DNA of 64,000 nt, from NCBI GenBank assembly GCA_021821465.1, contig JAKACM010000008.1, forward strand, positions 1 to 64,000. Reading direction: 5' to 3'. Under the pieces are notes generated by a model that had not been told where the DNA came from, ran no database searches, and was given only the letters and a program-made list of their open reading frames with translations. A program made the translations under genes and the position numbers. Each line of letters begins with the position of its first letter. Positions within the stretch are counted from its first letter, which is position 1. The DNA is from Bacillota bacterium. Its GTDB lineage: Bacteria; Bacillota; Sulfobacillia; Sulfobacillales; Sulfobacillaceae. This document shows, one piece after another, positions 6,493-64,000 of this stretch.

Positions 6493-7124
6493 ATACCCCA
6501 CCTTGCCGCCATATGAATCAAAAAGGGTGAGCCATAAGCCTCCACAGCACTCCCCACCGCAATAACCAGGGCCATTAGCACAACCAAGGTGGTAAAGGCC
6601 CCGAATTTCTGAACCAATGAACTTCTGCCGACAGTGCCCCTGGCGGCAATTAACTGCCAGGAAAATCCCAGCGCCACTCCGCTGACAATAATGAGAGCCG
6701 GGACAATAAACACATTTTGTAAGACGACGGCGATGATGGTTAAAGCGATTCCTTGCCAGTGAAGAGATGAAATGAGAAAGGCACCGGTAAAACCCAGGAC
6801 AAATCCACGGAAAAACAAGACGACCAGTACCAGAGGCATTCCGGCTACAGATATCCCCAGAACATAGAACAACCCCAAGATTTTAAGGTTGCCAATCAGA
6901 GCGGGGGGGAATATCCCCGCATAAGGAGGGGTAGTTGATGTTTCCACATGAATAAAATGACGGAGATATGTGGAAAGCGATAAAATATCCGCCTGTGTTA
7001 ATGTTTCAATGGCCAAGGCCCCAAAGACTATGCCTACGGCAAACATGGCCAGGGCAATATAAATAGGTATCAGGTATTGGCTGAAATATTCATCCCATAT
7101 AGTGATAGGGCGTCTTGCGATCAT
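6489..7124 (-). CDS. spoIIM: Stage II sporulation protein M
   Basis: A 211-residue polytopic membrane protein of the SpoIIM (DUF95) family. Hydrophobic segments lie at about residues 18-40, 85-110, 112-135, 140-165 and 180-205. In B. subtilis SpoIIM joins SpoIID and SpoIIP in the peptidoglycan-degrading machine that drives engulfment of the forespore. SpoIID and SpoIIP are not in the window. A GGGGGG-containing ribosome site precedes the ATG. The neighbours downstream of spo0A and the Nudix gene recall the Clostridia arrangement of nudF and spoIIM. Confidence 0.88.
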   Translation of the reverse strand: MIARRPITIWDEYFSQYLIPIYIALAMFAVGIVFGALAIETLTQADILSLSTYLRHFIHVETSTTPPYAGIFPPALIGNLKILGLFYVLGISVAGMPLVLVVLFFRGFVLGFTGAFLISSLHWQGIALTIIAVVLQNVFIVPALIIVSGVALGFSWQLIAARGTVGRSSLVQKFGAFTTLVVLMALVIAVGSAVEAYGSPFLIHMAARWGI

Positions 7125-58607: not shown

Positions 58608-58970
58608 TTATGTGGGCAAGCTTAATGCCGCCAAAATCTTTTCAACAGCCTTTTTTTCGATGCGCGAAACGTAACTGCGAGAAATTCCCAAGCGTTCCGC
58701 AATTTCCTTTTGAGTGTACCGTCTGTCCTGGCCATTCAATGCAAAACGTAAATTCAGCACCAAACGCTCTTTTCGGGTAAGATTGGACACAAAATCCGTC
58801 ACCCACGCCATAATCATATTGACTTCAACCGTATCGGGAACTTCATCTCCACTGGCTAATATATCCAGCAACAAGATTTCATTGCCTTCTCGGTCCACAC
58901 CTATAGGGCTGTAAATGCTCACTTCACTTTTGAGCTTCTTCTGGTTGCGTAAATGCATTAACACCTCGTT
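58608..58970 (-). CDS. spoIIIC: C-terminal half of sigma-K (SpoIIIC part), split gene
   Basis: The 120 residues from NEVLMHLRNQKK to the stop match the second half of mother-cell sigma factor K: SPIGVDREGNEILLLDIL (region 3) and TQKEIAERLGISRSYVSRIE (region 4.2). PIG.D.EGNEI and ISRSYVSRIEK are sigma-K rather than sigma-E features. Region 2 and pro-sequence are missing. The homology stops at the Asn-Glu codons (AACGAG); upstream codons read PQPPVSD and no longer fit the expected CIENE. The piece is not a functional sigma factor alone. It should join the N-terminal half, expected beyond 64000, when the intervening element is excised. Confidence 0.88.
   Translation of the reverse strand, partial: NEVLMHLRNQKKLKSEVSIYSPIGVDREGNEILLLDILASGDEVPDTVEVNMIMAWVTDFVSNLTRKERLVLNLRFALNGQDRRYTQKEIAERLGISRSYVSRIEKKAVEKILAALSLPT
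58966..58970 (-). other. Probable recombination core of the sigK intervening element
   Basis: AACGA on the minus strand, encoding Asn-Glu, is the last sequence fitting sigma-K. In B. subtilis the two sigK halves join at a five-base AATGA repeat coding the same residues (from memory of the skin work). Inverted repeats around it are not obvious. Confidence 0.6.
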
Positions 58971-59005
58971 GTCACTGACAGGAGGTTGCGGAAATAATTG
59001 GCAAT

Positions 59006-60586
59006 TTACTTCAAAGACATGGTCACGATTAGGGGGTTTTGGGGCGAGACGCTGGGTGATTGCACCACCGTAGGGATTGTCGCCTTAATGGAAACCGTAT
59101 CATGTCCGACGACAATTTCTTTGATGAACTGGTGAATAATTTCTCGCTTGTCCTCAAAAGTTAAATGGCCCTCTACCTGCTCAATCGACTGAATCAGGTT
59201 TTGCGCTAAGATCCTATATGCCTCCCAGTCCAGCGAGCGAGACTCCTCAAGCAAAGTTTGTTGCAGACTGGCCCGCTGGGTCAAGAGCGCCGTTTCTTGC
59301 TTTTTCAGCCGATTCAATCGATCCAGCACGTCATCAATGTTCGACACCGCTCCCTGCTCCAATACTCTAAGCAAATTCTCTTGTCCTGTTCGGATACGCA
59401 CGAGATCAACATCCGTCCGGCTGAGTTCCACTTCGATTAACTGGGTATCGGCTGGGGGCTGCAACAAATCTGCCAGCAGTTTCGGATTACGGAGCCAGTT
59501 GACGACATGCTCCCACACCCAGGCATCCAAAGCATGAGACTGTACTCGGGGTCTGTGCGTACACCCGGGATGTCGCCGTCCTGCTGTGGTTTTCCGGCAG
59601 GTATATTCCGGTTCAATGCGGCCCCAATTGCGCTGCCGTTTTCCGGTCATCGTTTGACTGCACAGACCACACCGAAGAAGGCCGGACAAGAGATATTCTT
59701 CTCTTCCTCGGGCTGTCCTCCAATTCATTTCCGCCTTGTTCATCACCGTCTGCGCTCTGGCCCACGTGTCTTCATCGACTATTGCCGGAACGCTTACGGG
59801 GATCCATTCAGAGCGGTCGCGAGTTTTCAGTCCGATTTTTTCGTTCTCGGGACGAAACTTATTGGTGTACATGCCGCTGGTATCCAAACGATTCGCATAG
59901 AAGATGCCCATGTATACGGGATTTCTGGCAATTTGACGCACAACCTGCCGATGCCAGATTGTGCGTCCCTTTTGGGTTAGGATGCCATCGGCGGTTAGAC
60001 GTTTAGCCGTGCCGTTTAATCCCCATCCGCTTGCCACTTCAGAAAAAATGCGGCGCACAACCTGCGCTTCCACCTCGACAATGTGGAGTTGACCCTCTTC
60101 ATAGCGGTAGCCATATGGCGCGATCCCCAAGGGATATTTCCCTTGGCGGGCTTTCTCCGTCCGACCCGTCATCGTCCGTAATCGGATTTTTTCCCGTTCA
60201 TATTCGGCAATGGCACCGCGCATCGAATAGAATAGCTTGCCTTCGGGAGTATTTTGCCAGTCAAAATTCACAAATTCGAGCCGCACTCCGGCGCGTTCAA
60301 TTTCTTCTGTCACGATTAATTGGTGGGAAAGATGTCGGGCAAACCGATCCGGATCATAAATCACGACCCGTTGGAGTTGCCCTTGCCTTACCGCAGAACG
60401 CAGGGCACGGAGTCCCGGACGGTCCAGCACCGATCCCGTAACCCCTTCGTCGGCAAATTCAATGATCTGAGATGCCCCCATAGCCCGGGCGCGCTGCGTA
60501 CAGCTTTCACGTTGAGCAAAGAGGCTATACCCATGGCGAGCCTGATCCTCACTGGATACCCGGAGATAGATACCGACAATCATCAT
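59006..60586 (-). CDS. spoIVCA: Large serine recombinase, SpoIVCA-like
   Basis: A recombinase of about 526 residues. The catalytic Ser is in GIYLRVSSEDQ, followed by VVIYDPDRFARHLSHQ and the rest of the resolvase domain (1-150), the recombinase domain (about 165-280, APYGYRYEEGQLHIVEVEAQ), a zinc ribbon with CGLC and later Cys (about 305-345) and a coiled coil (about 390-470). Its stop lies 36 bases from the sigK break, so it should excise the element. In B. subtilis spoIVCA is at the other (spoIVCB) end, as I recall. The second ATG is used since AAAGG is six bases upstream; the first ATG, at 60592, overlaps the preceding stop as ATGA. Confidence 0.9.
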   Translation of the reverse strand: MMIVGIYLRVSSEDQARHGYSLFAQRESCTQRARAMGASQIIEFADEGVTGSVLDRPGLRALRSAVRQGQLQRVVIYDPDRFARHLSHQLIVTEEIERAGVRLEFVNFDWQNTPEGKLFYSMRGAIAEYEREKIRLRTMTGRTEKARQGKYPLGIAPYGYRYEEGQLHIVEVEAQVVRRIFSEVASGWGLNGTAKRLTADGILTQKGRTIWHRQVVRQIARNPVYMGIFYANRLDTSGMYTNKFRPENEKIGLKTRDRSEWIPVSVPAIVDEDTWARAQTVMNKAEMNWRTARGREEYLLSGLLRCGLCSQTMTGKRQRNWGRIEPEYTCRKTTAGRRHPGCTHRPRVQSHALDAWVWEHVVNWLRNPKLLADLLQPPADTQLIEVELSRTDVDLVRIRTGQENLLRVLEQGAVSNIDDVLDRLNRLKKQETALLTQRASLQQTLLEESRSLDWEAYRILAQNLIQSIEQVEGHLTFEDKREIIHQFIKEIVVGHDTVSIKATIPTVVQSPSVSPQNPLIVTMSLK

Positions 60587-60588
60587 GC

Positions 60589-60753
60589 TCATCCTTTCGG
60601 TTGGGATTGATTGGCATGAAAGCGTTTCACGACAATCTCCAGGGCCCGTTTTTGGGCCTCATCCCCCTCTTGGGGTGTCCCCACCGGAATAATCGTGACA
60701 TGCCAGGTCGTAGCCTGTCTACCAGTACGTGACTGTTTTTGGTTATCTGTCAT
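60589..60753 (-). CDS. Small protein coupled to the recombinase
   Basis: A 54-residue protein of unknown family. The N-terminal 16 residues are polar and basic (MTDNQKQSRTGRQ), then come a strand-like TWHVTIIPVG and a helix EAQKRALEIVVKRF. AAGGAGG lies seven bases before the ATG. Its stop overlaps the first ATG of the recombinase as ATGA. Size and coupling recall a recombination directionality factor, but no homology is seen. Confidence 0.72.
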   Translation of the reverse strand: MTDNQKQSRTGRQATTWHVTIIPVGTPQEGDEAQKRALEIVVKRFHANQSQPKG

Positions 60754-60902
60754 CCGGTTACCTCCTTGACACATCCTATGCGCCACGGCTTGGCCGACTT
60801 GCATGACTCAAAGATCAAAAACGCATCAGGGCTGTGCAAAAGAAAAAAGCGACAGTCTGTGATGCGCACTCATCCCCTTCCTGCAGGCGCTCTTCTCCGA
60901 AC

Positions 60903-61139
60903 TTAGCCTACAATTTTGACATCGCTTTCTGTACGCAAGGCATGCCAGTCAAAACATTCCCGGTACCCGGCCTGAAAGCGCAAAACCACAAATTCCGGAC
61001 GACACTGTTCCACAATTGCCCACTGACAACTCCACTCCTCTGCATCGTTACAACGGGCCACCATCAGGGATTGCCCTGGCCACACCCAGTATTCGGTCGA
61101 TGCGGCTGCGGGATTTTGGTCAAACATTTGCGACATCAT
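60903..61139 (-). CDS. Small protein of the duplicated module, copy A
   Basis: A 78-residue protein I cannot name. It has WPGQSLMVARCNDAEEWSC and CRPEFVVLRFQAGYRECFDW, with three Cys that may bind metal. AAGGAGG precedes the first of two ATGs by eight bases. A second copy at 63110-63298 keeps most residues, which supports coding. Copy A appears intact. Confidence 0.65.
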   Translation of the reverse strand: MMSQMFDQNPAAASTEYWVWPGQSLMVARCNDAEEWSCQWAIVEQCRPEFVVLRFQAGYRECFDWHALRTESDVKIVG

Positions 61140-61422
61140 GAACAGGACCTCCTTCTTTTGAGCGAAGAGTACGACACACAAATAAGCCCCGGGTCACTGC
61201 ACCCCGGAGCTCTAGCCAAAACGGATGGTTCTCCGAATCCTTATTGTCGATTCACTCCACTATACGATTGGGCTCGGGTAATCCGATCCGCTTGACGGCG
61301 GGACGACCTTGCAGCCCGTGGAGCTCCATCCATCCGGTAATCCTTGACACGGACCCAAATAGCTTCCCGTGCGCAAGACCCACCCGGTATCCAAGAGAGC
61401 CAATCCGGTGCGTTTGGTGGCA
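60911..61422. repeat. Duplicated module, copy A
   Basis: About 510 bases nearly repeated in direct orientation at 63077-63582. It holds the small-protein gene, a hairpin (AGCCCCGG/CCGGAGCT, one mismatch, 61185-61211) and the 3' end of a second gene. Differences are scattered base changes plus a four-base insertion. Confidence 0.88.
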
Positions 61423-61499
61423 TAGGGGGCCTGGCGGCCTTGGCCGCCGATGAACTGCTCTTGCTTGGGACCTGGTTCTATCAGCAGGTGACGCACCAT
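61241..61499 (-). pseudogene. Frameshifted copy of the 166-residue module gene
   Basis: The minus-strand segment reads KRTGLALLDTGWVLRTGSYL then GPCQGLPDG like copy B (63406-63906), then a CCAT repeat (four extra bases in CCATCCATCC on the plus strand) shifts the frame. The C-terminal APRAARSSRRQADRITR continues in another frame. The N-terminal part of copy B is not found here. A decayed, truncated copy. Confidence 0.7.
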
Positions 61500-61555
61500 C
61501 CGGCATTTTCTCCGGCTTTTGGGCTCTCACCGTCCTCATCCTCGCACTCGTCCTG

Positions 61556-61810
61556 ATGAGTGTCGCGCATCCCCGTCAGGATGGATCCCGAGATCATGCA
61601 GACTCTATGACCGAGGAGCCCCGTGACAGCCCTGCCGACCCTATGACCGGATTAACGGATCGGGAGCGAGAAGTCTATTATCATCTAAAGCAAGCGCACA
61701 GTATCGCAGACATTGCCCGGCTGTGCCAGATCGAGCCCACCACCGTCAAGACACATATTCGCCATATTTACCGCAAACTGGGGATCACGAACCGCGAAGA
61801 ATTACCGTAG
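61556..61810 (+). CDS. LuxR/GerE-type HTH protein
   Basis: From the ATG, 84 residues with a C-terminal LuxR-type domain: LTDREREVYYHLKQAHSIAD then IARLCQIEPTTVKTHIRHIY and RKLGITNREEL. The frame is open for about 35 codons before the ATG and encodes a hydrophobic stretch (FWALTVLILALVL) but has no ATG, GTG or TTG, and the ATG has no Shine-Dalgarno. It may be a membrane-anchored regulator with an unusual start, or a remnant. Lies alone on the plus strand of the element. Confidence 0.65.
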   Translation: MSVAHPRQDGSRDHADSMTEEPRDSPADPMTGLTDREREVYYHLKQAHSIADIARLCQIEPTTVKTHIRHIYRKLGITNREELP

Positions 61811-62225
61811 TCCCCCGGATCCCTGAATGTACACCGGGAGTACTCCCGATCTCCACCCGAAGTACTCCCCGAGTCAAGAGACAGCGAGAGCGTCCCCAGG
61901 GACTTACCCGGAGCCTGATAAGTTCTCCGCTCATAAACCCCCAGGAGGTGCAGACACAATATGGAAGTCTCCCCATTTATCCGGCCATGTCGCCATCCTT
62001 CCCGGCGAAATCCGTATTTCCTATGCTCCGGAGTCAGAAGAAAGAGACATCCCAACTCATTCTTCACCCCATCATGACCAAGGTGTTTAGCCCGACACGG
62101 GCTGTTCAGTTCGGTCGGTGAAGGAACGACGCCATCGGCAACTCAAGACGAAGTAGGGCCCTAAACCGACAATCAAACACAAAGACGGGGTTGTTATCTG
62201 TTGAATGGCGCACGGAACGTCCCAA
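61811..62225. other. Gap with AGTACTCCC repeats
   Basis: No gene is convincing here. Just after the LuxR-type gene, CGGGAGTACTCCCG (61835-61848) is a perfect 14-base palindrome, and AGTACTCCC recurs at 61861-61869, 22 bases on. These could be operator sites. Confidence 0.5.
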
Positions 62226-62672
62226 TCAAAACATTTCTGGCCCGAAACGTTTCAGAAAATCAGCAGGGGTCAGGACAGTAAAATATTCCTCAATCTCAGG
62301 CGTGTGGAAATCCTTATCGCCCGTAACCAGAATATCGGGCTGTGCGACCATAGCGGATACCAGTATGGGGAGATCCGCGGGATCGCGGATTGGCGGAACC
62401 GCAACGGCTGATAAATCCACAGGCGTGTAAGCCACTTCAAATTCTAACGATGTAAGAAAGCGATCCCACTTTGACACCAAGTTGGGGAACTTTCTTTGCA
62501 GCACTCTCGCAATCTCCGTGATGGAATAACTACAAAGAATCAGTTGATGTTCTTCAATCACGAACGTCAAAAGTTTGCCGGCTACCGAGCGTTGAGAAAG
62601 AATGGCCGAAATCACAATATTGGAGTCAACAAATACCCGAAGTGCCAACTCACTTTTTGGTGTTTCGTTCAT
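62226..62672 (-). CDS. PIN-domain toxin
   Basis: A 148-residue PIN-fold ribonuclease of the toxin type. The acidic active-site residues are in RVFVDSNIVISAIL (Asp), SITEIARVL (Glu), RDPADLPILVSAM (Asp) and LVTGDKDFHTPEI (Asp). It overlaps the antitoxin gene by 23 bases, with AAGGA before the ATG. A toxin here could hold the element in the cell line. Confidence 0.87.
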   Translation of the reverse strand: MNETPKSELALRVFVDSNIVISAILSQRSVAGKLLTFVIEEHQLILCSYSITEIARVLQRKFPNLVSKWDRFLTSLEFEVAYTPVDLSAVAVPPIRDPADLPILVSAMVAQPDILVTGDKDFHTPEIEEYFTVLTPADFLKRFGPEMF

Positions 62673-62919
62673 TCCACATTTCCTTCCGCACCTGTTTCAA
62701 TTCGTCCAAGAGGTCTTGTTCTGTCATCCCTTTCTGCTGAGCTTCTCTACTCATTGCTTCCTGTAGATCCCGCAATGCGACCACGCTCGCCTTTGTAATG
62801 ACAACCTTCCCATTCTCCTCGATAAAAGCCACACGGTCCCCTTCACTCAAATTCAGCAATTCACGAATGCCTTTCGGAATTGTCACCTGACCTTTGGCAC
62901 TGATCCGTGATACTTCCAT
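62650..62919 (-). CDS. AbrB-family antitoxin
   Basis: An 89-residue protein with an N-terminal AbrB/SpoVT-like swapped-hairpin domain (ISAKGQVTIPKGIRELLNLS then EGDRVAFIEENGKVVI) and a helical tail (MTEQDLLDELKQVRKEMWNE) that would bind the PIN toxin. A purine-rich site precedes the ATG. It would also repress its own promoter, as in such pairs. Confidence 0.87.
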   Translation of the reverse strand: MEVSRISAKGQVTIPKGIRELLNLSEGDRVAFIEENGKVVITKASVVALRDLQEAMSREAQQKGMTEQDLLDELKQVRKEMWNERNTKK

Positions 62920-63109
62920 AGCGCCCCTCGCCCCTTCTCCAGCTGCTTTACTTGTTTACTTCCTTACTTCATATTTTATCCCCTTGATGGATTCTTAAGC
63001 AATTGTTTCAACCGATGTTAGATCGCGGAAAGAGGCTTCACGGCAATCACACCTGAGCAGAAACACCTTATCTTAAAATTTTCACGCCCTTTTGTGTATG
63101 CAAAGCATG

Positions 63110-63298
63110 TCAATCAAAACATTCCCGATACCCGGCCTGAAAGCGCAAAACCACAAACTCTGGACGGCACTGTTCCACAGTGACGCGGTGACAACTCCAC
63201 TCCTCTGCGTCATTACAGCGGGCCACCATCAGGGATTGCCCTGGCCACATCAGGTATTCAGCAGATGAGGCTGCAGGATTTTGGCAAACATTGGCCAC
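63110..63298 (-). pseudogene. Small protein of the duplicated module, copy B, altered
   Basis: It shares CQNPAASSAEYLMWPGQSL and CRPEFVVLRFQAGYRECFD with copy A. A one-base deletion shifts the ATG pair out of frame, and Trp after ECFD is a TGA stop, so it is 16 residues shorter at the end. A GTG at 63298 might still start a 62-residue product. Confidence 0.6.
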
Positions 63299-63343
63299 AT
63301 CATGAACAGGACCCCCTTCTTTTGAGCAAGGAGTACGACACAC

Positions 63344-63376
63344 CAAAAAGCCCCGAGGTCACTGCACCCCGGGGCT
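63344..63376 (-). terminator. Terminator between the module genes, copy B
   Basis: On the minus strand AGCCCCG and CGGGGCT are 7-bp arms with a 14-base loop, followed by TTTTT. It follows the 166-residue gene. The copy A version has a mismatch in the stem. Confidence 0.8.
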
Positions 63377-63405
63377 CTGGCCAGAACGGATTGTTGTGCG
63401 AATCC

Positions 63406-63906
63406 TTATTGTCGATTCACTCCACTATACGATTGGGATCGGGTAATCCGATCCGCTTGCCGGCGGGACGACCTTGCGGCCCGTGGAGCCCCATCAGGTA
63501 ATCCTTGACACGGGCCCAAATAGCTTCCTGTGCGTAAGATCCAACTCGTATCCAAGAGAGCCAGTCCGGTACGTTTAGTGGCTTGAAAGGGTTCGGGAGG
63601 CGGAGAACCGTCATCACCGGCGAGTCCTCCGGATCCATAATCTCCCGCGACCCAGGAACAGCCATGAGGACGGTTAACACTGGTAGAACCCTGCGGGCGC
63701 CCGGATCCGTCTCGCTTGCCCCCTTTGGCCGCGGGTTGAAAGTGAATGTGGTGACGTTGCGCGGTGCGATTCAGGGCGGCGTAAGTGAAAATCATGCCAT
63801 CTTCTGTCGCGAGGATATCCAATGTCTCGCGCAGAGTGTGATGTGGAGCAAGATCGCGCAAGCGGGCCAATAACGTTGCCCGAGATCTTGAGGATGGGGC
63901 CGGCAT
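63406..63906 (-). CDS. Hypothetical protein of the duplicated module, copy B
   Basis: A 166-residue protein of unknown family. The N-terminal 50 residues are helical and may be DNA-binding (LLARLRDLAPHHTLRETLDI, TYAALNRTAQRHHIHF), followed by a Gly/Pro-rich linker and a basic C-terminus (APRAARSSRRQADRITR). AAGGAGG lies upstream of the ATG. In the part shared with copy A about ten of thirteen differing codons are synonymous in this frame and few are in the overlapping frame, which supports this frame as coding. Confidence 0.65.
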   Translation of the reverse strand: MPAPSSRSRATLLARLRDLAPHHTLRETLDILATEDGMIFTYAALNRTAQRHHIHFQPAAKGGKRDGSGRPQGSTSVNRPHGCSWVAGDYGSGGLAGDDGSPPPEPFQATKRTGLALLDTSWILRTGSYLGPCQGLPDGAPRAARSSRRQADRITRSQSYSGVNRQ

Positions 63907-64000
63907 AATCAGCAGTCCTCCTTGATGGACAAGTGGTGAATCAGTTATTGGGGTGGGTACGAGGGGAATGCGTTCCAAATTCGATGGTGTTCGCATTGAT

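Follow-up and report, generated by a model that had tools for sequence, protein, structure and literature searches.

We analysed a window of 64,000 nt (positions 1 to 64,000 of contig JAKACM010000008.1, assembly GCA_021821465.1, here G000) from an acidophilic, spore-forming Bacillota bacterium of the Sulfobacillaceae, and found that it carries one half of sigK, the gene for sigma-K, a regulator that switches on late in sporulation, beside a gene for a large serine recombinase (Table 1). The minus-strand stretch 58608-58964 codes for the SpoIIIC, or C-terminal, half of sigma-K; its two top NCBIfam matches are both SigK models, PRK05803 with 140.9 bits and TIGR02846 with 136.6 bits, the latter match being limited to profile positions 110-225 of 227. 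Homology to sigma-K begins at N-E-V-L-M-H, with the codons AAC GAG (Asn-Glu) at 58970-58965, and the recombinase open reading frame (ORF), which lies on the same strand, has its end at 59006, at a distance of 36 bases from this core. A preliminary description of this DNA had stated that only the SpoIIIC part is present and that homology ends at AACGAG with the recombinase 36 bases off, and both statements hold. We take the Asn-Glu split point to be the codon pair used by the skin element of Bacillus subtilis; a split at the same site also occurs in other Bacillota. Together with the data from related genomes, these findings suggest, with a probability of roughly 0.86, that a skin-type element interrupts sigK in this member of the Sulfobacillus group and can be excised by its recombinase. 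In the proposed mechanism, the serine recombinase encoded at the spoIIIC end would recombine the attachment sites attL and attR at the dinucleotide GA of the Asn-Glu codon pair, the element would be released as a circle and the two sigK halves would be rejoined in frame.

A search of 34 genomes of the family with the SigK model revealed an uninterrupted sigK in 21 (20 over the cut-off, and G019 at 297.5 bits) and both halves, split at the same Asn-Glu, in seven (G003, G005, G015, G020, G029, G030 and G031). One half only was found in three, the C half in G000 and G004 and the N half in G032, and the gene was detected in neither form in G014 and G033, both of which are incomplete genomes. In G013, sigK reads across the split site and is then cut by the contig end, contig C82 (locus L055) stopping about 170 bases past the junction site. 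The split genomes include the finished chromosome of Sulfobacillus acidophilus DSM 10332 (G020; 6000 bases of its second contig are a 100% match to plasmid CP003180.1), an assembly labelled S. benefaciens AMDSBA4 (G029) and metagenome assemblies of Bacillota (G005, G015, G030 and G031), and the gene is intact in AMDSBA1 (G013), S. thermotolerans Kr1 (G019) and S. harzensis (G022). Every N half seen ends in C-I-(E/D)-N-E and every C half starts at that Glu, both being open up to the split; joined in frame, the halves of the relatives (CIENE + EVLMHL) have the same form as the intact gene of G013.

Elements lying on a single contig measure about 2.7 kb (G020), 5.2 kb (G029 and G031) and 14.5 kb (G030). 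The recombinase gene abuts the C half in G000, G004, G020, G029 and G031, as does a recombinase tail in G015, and the earlier placement of the recombinase at the spoIIIC end is thereby confirmed for G000 and several relatives; in G030 the gene is internal and closer to the N half, and in G005 it lies beside the N half on the opposite strand. In S. acidophilus (L043, 4493-5956), the recombinase frame crosses the attR core and ends within the spoIIIC half. Excision would therefore alter the last residues of this recombinase, which is possibly self-limiting.

The sites attP and attB were rebuilt by script for seven family genomes by joining roughly 35 bases from either side of GA, and nine centres of symmetry were tested; attP was built for relatives, G000 offering attR only. 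GA was the best of the nine attP centres in six of the seven genomes, and in G020 another centre scored 12 versus 10 for GA. Shuffling of the right arm gave p <= 0.0035 for attP symmetry in G003, G005, G015 and G030, 0.022 in G029 and 0.035 in G031. At the empty site attB, GA was the best centre in five of seven, with a tie in G003 (8 and 8) and a loss in G015 (8 and 9). The left arm of the G015 element carries an inverted copy of the attR arm containing TTTCCGCAACCTCCTGT. GA was also the best attP centre at six of eight split loci outside the family, the exceptions being L097 (GA 15 versus 17) and L199, where the halves as placed do not meet at GA.

The proportions of nonsynonymous (pN) and synonymous (pS) differences in the C half were 0.009 and 0.505 for G029/G031, 0.058 and 0.489 for G003/G004, and 0.038 and 0.771 for G000/G015; in the N half they were 0.005 and 0.499 for G029/G031, and 0.048 and 0.767 for G015 against the intact G013. 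Many pS values are saturated, and dN/dS is given only where computable: 0.011 (C half) and 0.006 (N half) for G029/G031, and 0.076 for the C half of G003/G004. Given that pN is far below pS, the sigK halves are, judged by their sequences, under purifying selection, unlike decaying halves.

Using the window recombinase as a query (E <= 1e-50), we obtained matches in 12 of the 34 family genomes. Recombinases at least 50% identical to it occur in seven genomes, all with a split sigK, and among the 34 are found only beside split sigK; those with 33-40% identity occur in five genomes, none of which is among the ten split genomes. The seven sigK-linked recombinases of the family share 45.6-81.1% pairwise identity. 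In the recombinase tree G000 groups with G004 and then with G005 (supports 83.5/80 and 100/100), whereas in the host tree, which is based on SufB alone and has some weak branches, G000 stands with its own genus, apart from G004 and G005. Two host-like topologies were rejected for the recombinase tree by the approximately unbiased test (p 1.9e-5 and 6.4e-7), and recombinase identity shows no relation to SufB identity (Spearman 0.05, 21 pairs). A single ancient, vertically inherited element is thus unsupported, and the conflict between the two trees suggests that the elements moved between hosts. In a tree of 26 rows, eight rows of sigK-linked recombinases, YP2.bin78 among them, formed a Sulfobacillus-group clade; seven formed a second clade, one stood singly and four made up a distant set. 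Because six rows of this tree have fewer than half of the columns and long branches come together, we claim only that the sigK-linked serine recombinases appear to comprise at least three lineages.

An ORF of about 54-62 aa precedes the recombinase gene in six of seven elements, ending within about 6 bases of the recombinase start or overlapping it. In G000 it has the ribosome-binding site AAGGAGGT at 60767-60760, and PHROGs and other profile searches gave no significant family for it. Identity of the small ORFs is 41-55% among G000, G004 and G005 and 71% between G029 and G031, and the ORF of G030 is weakly similar to both groups. Its position and size, and the parallel with CD1234 of C. difficile and GirX of Bacillus cereus, make the small ORF a candidate directionality factor. 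The N halves of the relatives open with a hydrophobic leader resembling a pro-sequence, and excision may therefore be an extra layer of sigma-K control.

Several observations weigh against a functional skin-type element in this group. The SigK model found no sigK N half across the 199 contigs of G000 (completeness 98.16%, contamination 5.11%). In S. acidophilus, attP symmetry falls short of significance (p 0.10, right-arm shuffles) and the small ORF has no clear similarity to those of other elements. Among the 34 genomes, the recombinase gene is absent from the matches in the split genomes G003, G015 and G032; in G003 and G015 the contig bearing the C half starts within 370 bases of it, and in G032 no C half was found. 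The structure model of the small ORF consists of one helix (mean predicted local distance difference test score 72.5). When promoters of the B. subtilis sigma-E type were scanned for, p was 0.045-0.74 upstream of the operon and 0.1-0.83 upstream of sigK itself, values that are uninformative either way.

Since the relatives are split at the same point and keep both sigK halves in apparently working order, the element is probably removed at spore formation. Of the earlier proposal that developmental excision extends to this lineage, the split and the linked recombinase are complete in relatives, and mother-cell timing rests on the known systems. Excision might instead be constant or random in growing cells and untied to the mother cell, with sigma-K available in a fraction of cells, as would fit the failure of the scan to recognise a sporulation-type promoter and the yin element of Clostridium botulinum, which is excised at all time points according to the accessible part of PMC10747680. 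In C. difficile, however, recombinase production is continuous and it is a directionality factor that confines excision to the mother cell (accessible part of PMC5025042), so the lack of a visible promoter tells nothing here. We consider untimed excision unlikely.

The missing N half raises a second question. The whole assembly yields 11 SigK-model matches, of which a single one, C42:19814-20446 (253.7 bits), is full length; it is taken as sigE because a sigF/sigG-like gene adjoins it. The others are the C half of the window, once, and otherwise other sigma factors or fragments. A match on contig C177 was ruled out as the N half, since it reads as an RpoD-like fragment that contains a stop and has apparent transposase remains after it. 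A minus-strand N half had been predicted to the right of position 64000; the contig was followed to its end at 75315 and none is there. The preliminary description also held that an intact sigK elsewhere, with no N half to the right, would speak against the element: no intact sigK was found, and the N half is absent from the assembly.

The gene order of relatives bears on this absence. In G013, a MutY-family gene (230.5 bits, under the cut-off of 286.5) lies upstream of sigK, as it does in G015 with one extra gene between. In G000, a mutY-like gene lies near the start of contig C96, which about 470 bases on stops in the start of a MerR-type helix-turn-helix (HTH) sequence. Contig C59 has a copy of this end (79% identity over 165 bases) that belongs to an IS607-family transposase (186.7 bits, over the cut-off), followed by a weakly TnpB-like ORF; C96 thus breaks off within the start of an IS607 transposase, roughly at the place expected for sigK. 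Because the contig expected to carry the N half breaks inside IS607-type sequence, the missing half is likely an assembly gap at an insertion sequence. The alternative is that sigK is dead in G000, with the C half a recent remnant after loss of the N half, perhaps when the IS607-type sequence inserted, even if the relatives excise their elements. The failure to find the N half despite a rated completeness of 98.16%, and the presence of an insertion sequence in its expected place, would agree with such a loss, but the C half has no stop and its pN is far below its pS against G015, and a gap is the simpler explanation where the neighbouring contig breaks at that very spot; a dead sigK appears to us quite improbable. 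An assembly or binning artefact joining the recombinase gene to sigK, which 199 contigs and 5.11% contamination might suggest, can be practically discounted, and is refuted for the relatives, since the same junction arrangement with matching half-sites is present in other assemblies and in the finished chromosome of S. acidophilus, where no metagenome binning is involved.

Contig C186 (L068) was considered as a source of the attL of G000 and rejected: a 39-bp stretch at 6648-6686, 92% identical to the left arm of the G015 element, lies away from sigK. The genes flanking this stretch are presumably OsmC-like and ornithine-cyclodeaminase-like, and contig C152 carries both flanking regions (84% and 97% identical), separated there by a longer stretch.

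The recombinase contains Resolvase, Recombinase and Zn-ribbon domains. Further inside the element, two copies of a direct repeat flank a LuxR-type ORF and a PIN/AbrB pair (Table 1). The element continues beyond the window to contig position 75315. This part encodes a reverse transcriptase, an SH3 protein, a DNA-binding HTH protein, another with weak resemblance to a helicase loader, and two paired small ORFs, of which one is DUF4258 and the other MqsA-like under its cut-off. Searches of eight element proteins against PHROGs gave integrase, helicase-loader-like, DNA-binding and sigma-like matches; no phage structural or lysis family was found among these eight, which are a subset of the ORFs of a partly unassembled element. 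To that extent, the cargo appears, as first suggested, to differ from that of B. subtilis skin. Cargo varies among the relatives: S. acidophilus has ferritin-like and Fur-like proteins, and G031 has BacA and SurE, with ORFs resembling these in G029 and G030.

Table 1. Features of the sigK junction and the adjoining element in the window
Feature	Position	Strand	Basis
spoIIIC-like C-terminal half of sigK, from AAC GAG (Asn-Glu)	58608-58970	-	SigK models; pN/pS against G015
Predicted crossover dinucleotide GA of attR	58966-58967	-	Symmetry centre of rebuilt attP, 6/7 family genomes
Element arm of attR, contains TTTCCGCAACCTCCTGT	58968-59002	-	33/35 bases as in G015 attR
Large serine recombinase, 528 aa	59006-60592	-	PF00239, PF07508, PF13408 over cut-off; phrog_95 integrase 358 bits
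54-aa ORF overlapping recombinase start, candidate recombination directionality factor	60589-60753	-	Ribosome-binding site AAGGAGGT; similar ORFs in relatives
Direct repeat of about 515 bp, copy 1	60902-61421		84-90% identical to 63067-63582
LuxR-type HTH ORF, cargo	61556-61810	+	PF00196 46.6 bits
PIN-domain protein, toxin-like cargo	62226-62672	-	PF13470, TIGR00305 over cut-off
AbrB/MazE-type protein, antitoxin-like cargo	62650-62919	-	TIGR01439, PF04014 over cut-off
Direct repeat of about 515 bp, copy 2	63067-63582		Identity to copy 1
196-aa ORF	63406-63996	-	No match to NCBIfam, Pfam-type models or PHROGs

Splits at this site are not confined to the family. In a sample of 249 genomes from the phylum, 215 matched the SigK model, 177 of them over the cut-off, these being model matches in a sample and no curated census. 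Outside the family, 34 genomes chosen by eye for want of a strong full-length match were searched for splits; the 177 genomes above the cut-off, a few narrowly below it and 34 with no match lay outside this selection. Both halves at this site were found in 16 of the 34 chosen (16 of the 249 sampled), with the halves on different contigs in three; partial cases are G154 (N half only), G263 (C half and part of the N half) and G201 (C half only). At L201 (G202) some 6 kb separates the halves, which are on opposite strands, an arrangement that resembles an inversion of one end. Two elements, L195 (G230) and L196 (G180), are 1.8 kb long with one recombinase gene each, convergent with the N half in G230 and beside the C half in G180, and in Desulfocucumis palustris and Peptococcaceae BRH_c4b the elements span 3.2-3.3 kb and the recombinase gene adjoins the C half. 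Reading by eye identified 13 of 80 loci as split (L071, L073-L075, L077, L095, L097, L102, L104, L113, L120, L122 and L127), five of them from this family; no recombinase was found in L095, L120 and L127 within the locus stretch examined. Other apparent split points of sigK, in other families of the phylum, lie near model position 140 (G039, G060 and G176) and near position 61, where the SigK matches of G061, G196 and G279 start.

The window recombinase is related to XisF, the developmental-excision recombinase of the fdxN element (106.7 bits, under the model cut-off of 375), and belongs to a different family by that curated cut-off; the fdxN element is one of cyanobacterial heterocysts. As in B. 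subtilis skin with SpoIVCA, sigK is divided, a large serine recombinase is encoded and joining restores the frame. Unlike B. subtilis skin, the searched cargo here includes no phage structural family, the elements of the relatives measure 2.7-14.5 kb, and the recombinase gene lies at the spoIIIC end and is read with sigK, whereas spoIVCA lies downstream of the 5' part (accessible part of PMC10747680). The skin element of C. difficile (recombinase CD1231, directionality factor CD1234) likewise has a serine recombinase and, as seen in the relatives, inverted-repeat half-sites, and a small separate directionality protein is expected here by analogy with it; its sigma-K lacks a pro-sequence, unlike the sigK of the relatives with its pro-sequence-like leader (available text of PMC5025042), and the small ORF described here, in contrast to CD1234, stands directly before the recombinase gene. 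The gin element of B. cereus is a non-phage element that likewise interrupts a gene for sporulation in the mother cell and encodes a serine recombinase, GirC, and the small GirX, but its target is gerE and it measures 28.6 kb and has three recombinases (available text of PMC5595907).

Elements intervening in sigK are known in Bacillus and Clostridium and have been described as spread through the spore-forming bacteria (PMC5595907, as available, citing a 2013 Mol Microbiol paper); B. subtilis skin and SP-beta are covered in the accessible part of PMC4191935, and the skin element has been termed an exception in clostridia (Serrano et al., 2016, PMC5025042, as available). A literature search that covered few subscription journals found no publication on sigK in Sulfobacillus, and none on sigK in Symbiobacterium and Thermaerobacter. 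Elements of this kind are thus known; what seems new is the lineage in which they occur here, their compact forms, the clade of recombinases and the small candidate factor. In a wider proposal, to which we give even chances, one dinucleotide of sigK is a recurrent docking site in spore-forming Bacillota, used by at least three recombinase lineages whose elements pass from host to host and insert at the same GA; some would have shrunk to about 1.8 kb around one recombinase gene and would amount to introns that are removed from the DNA, and the Sulfobacillus group would hold a target-specific clade with its own small upstream directionality protein.

If the halves rejoin in sporulation, excising DNA from sigK would be a recurring way of gating sigma-K. 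The cultured acidophile S. acidophilus, with its 2.7-kb element, makes this gating idea testable, and the compact elements may serve as simple natural systems for studying recombinase directionality.

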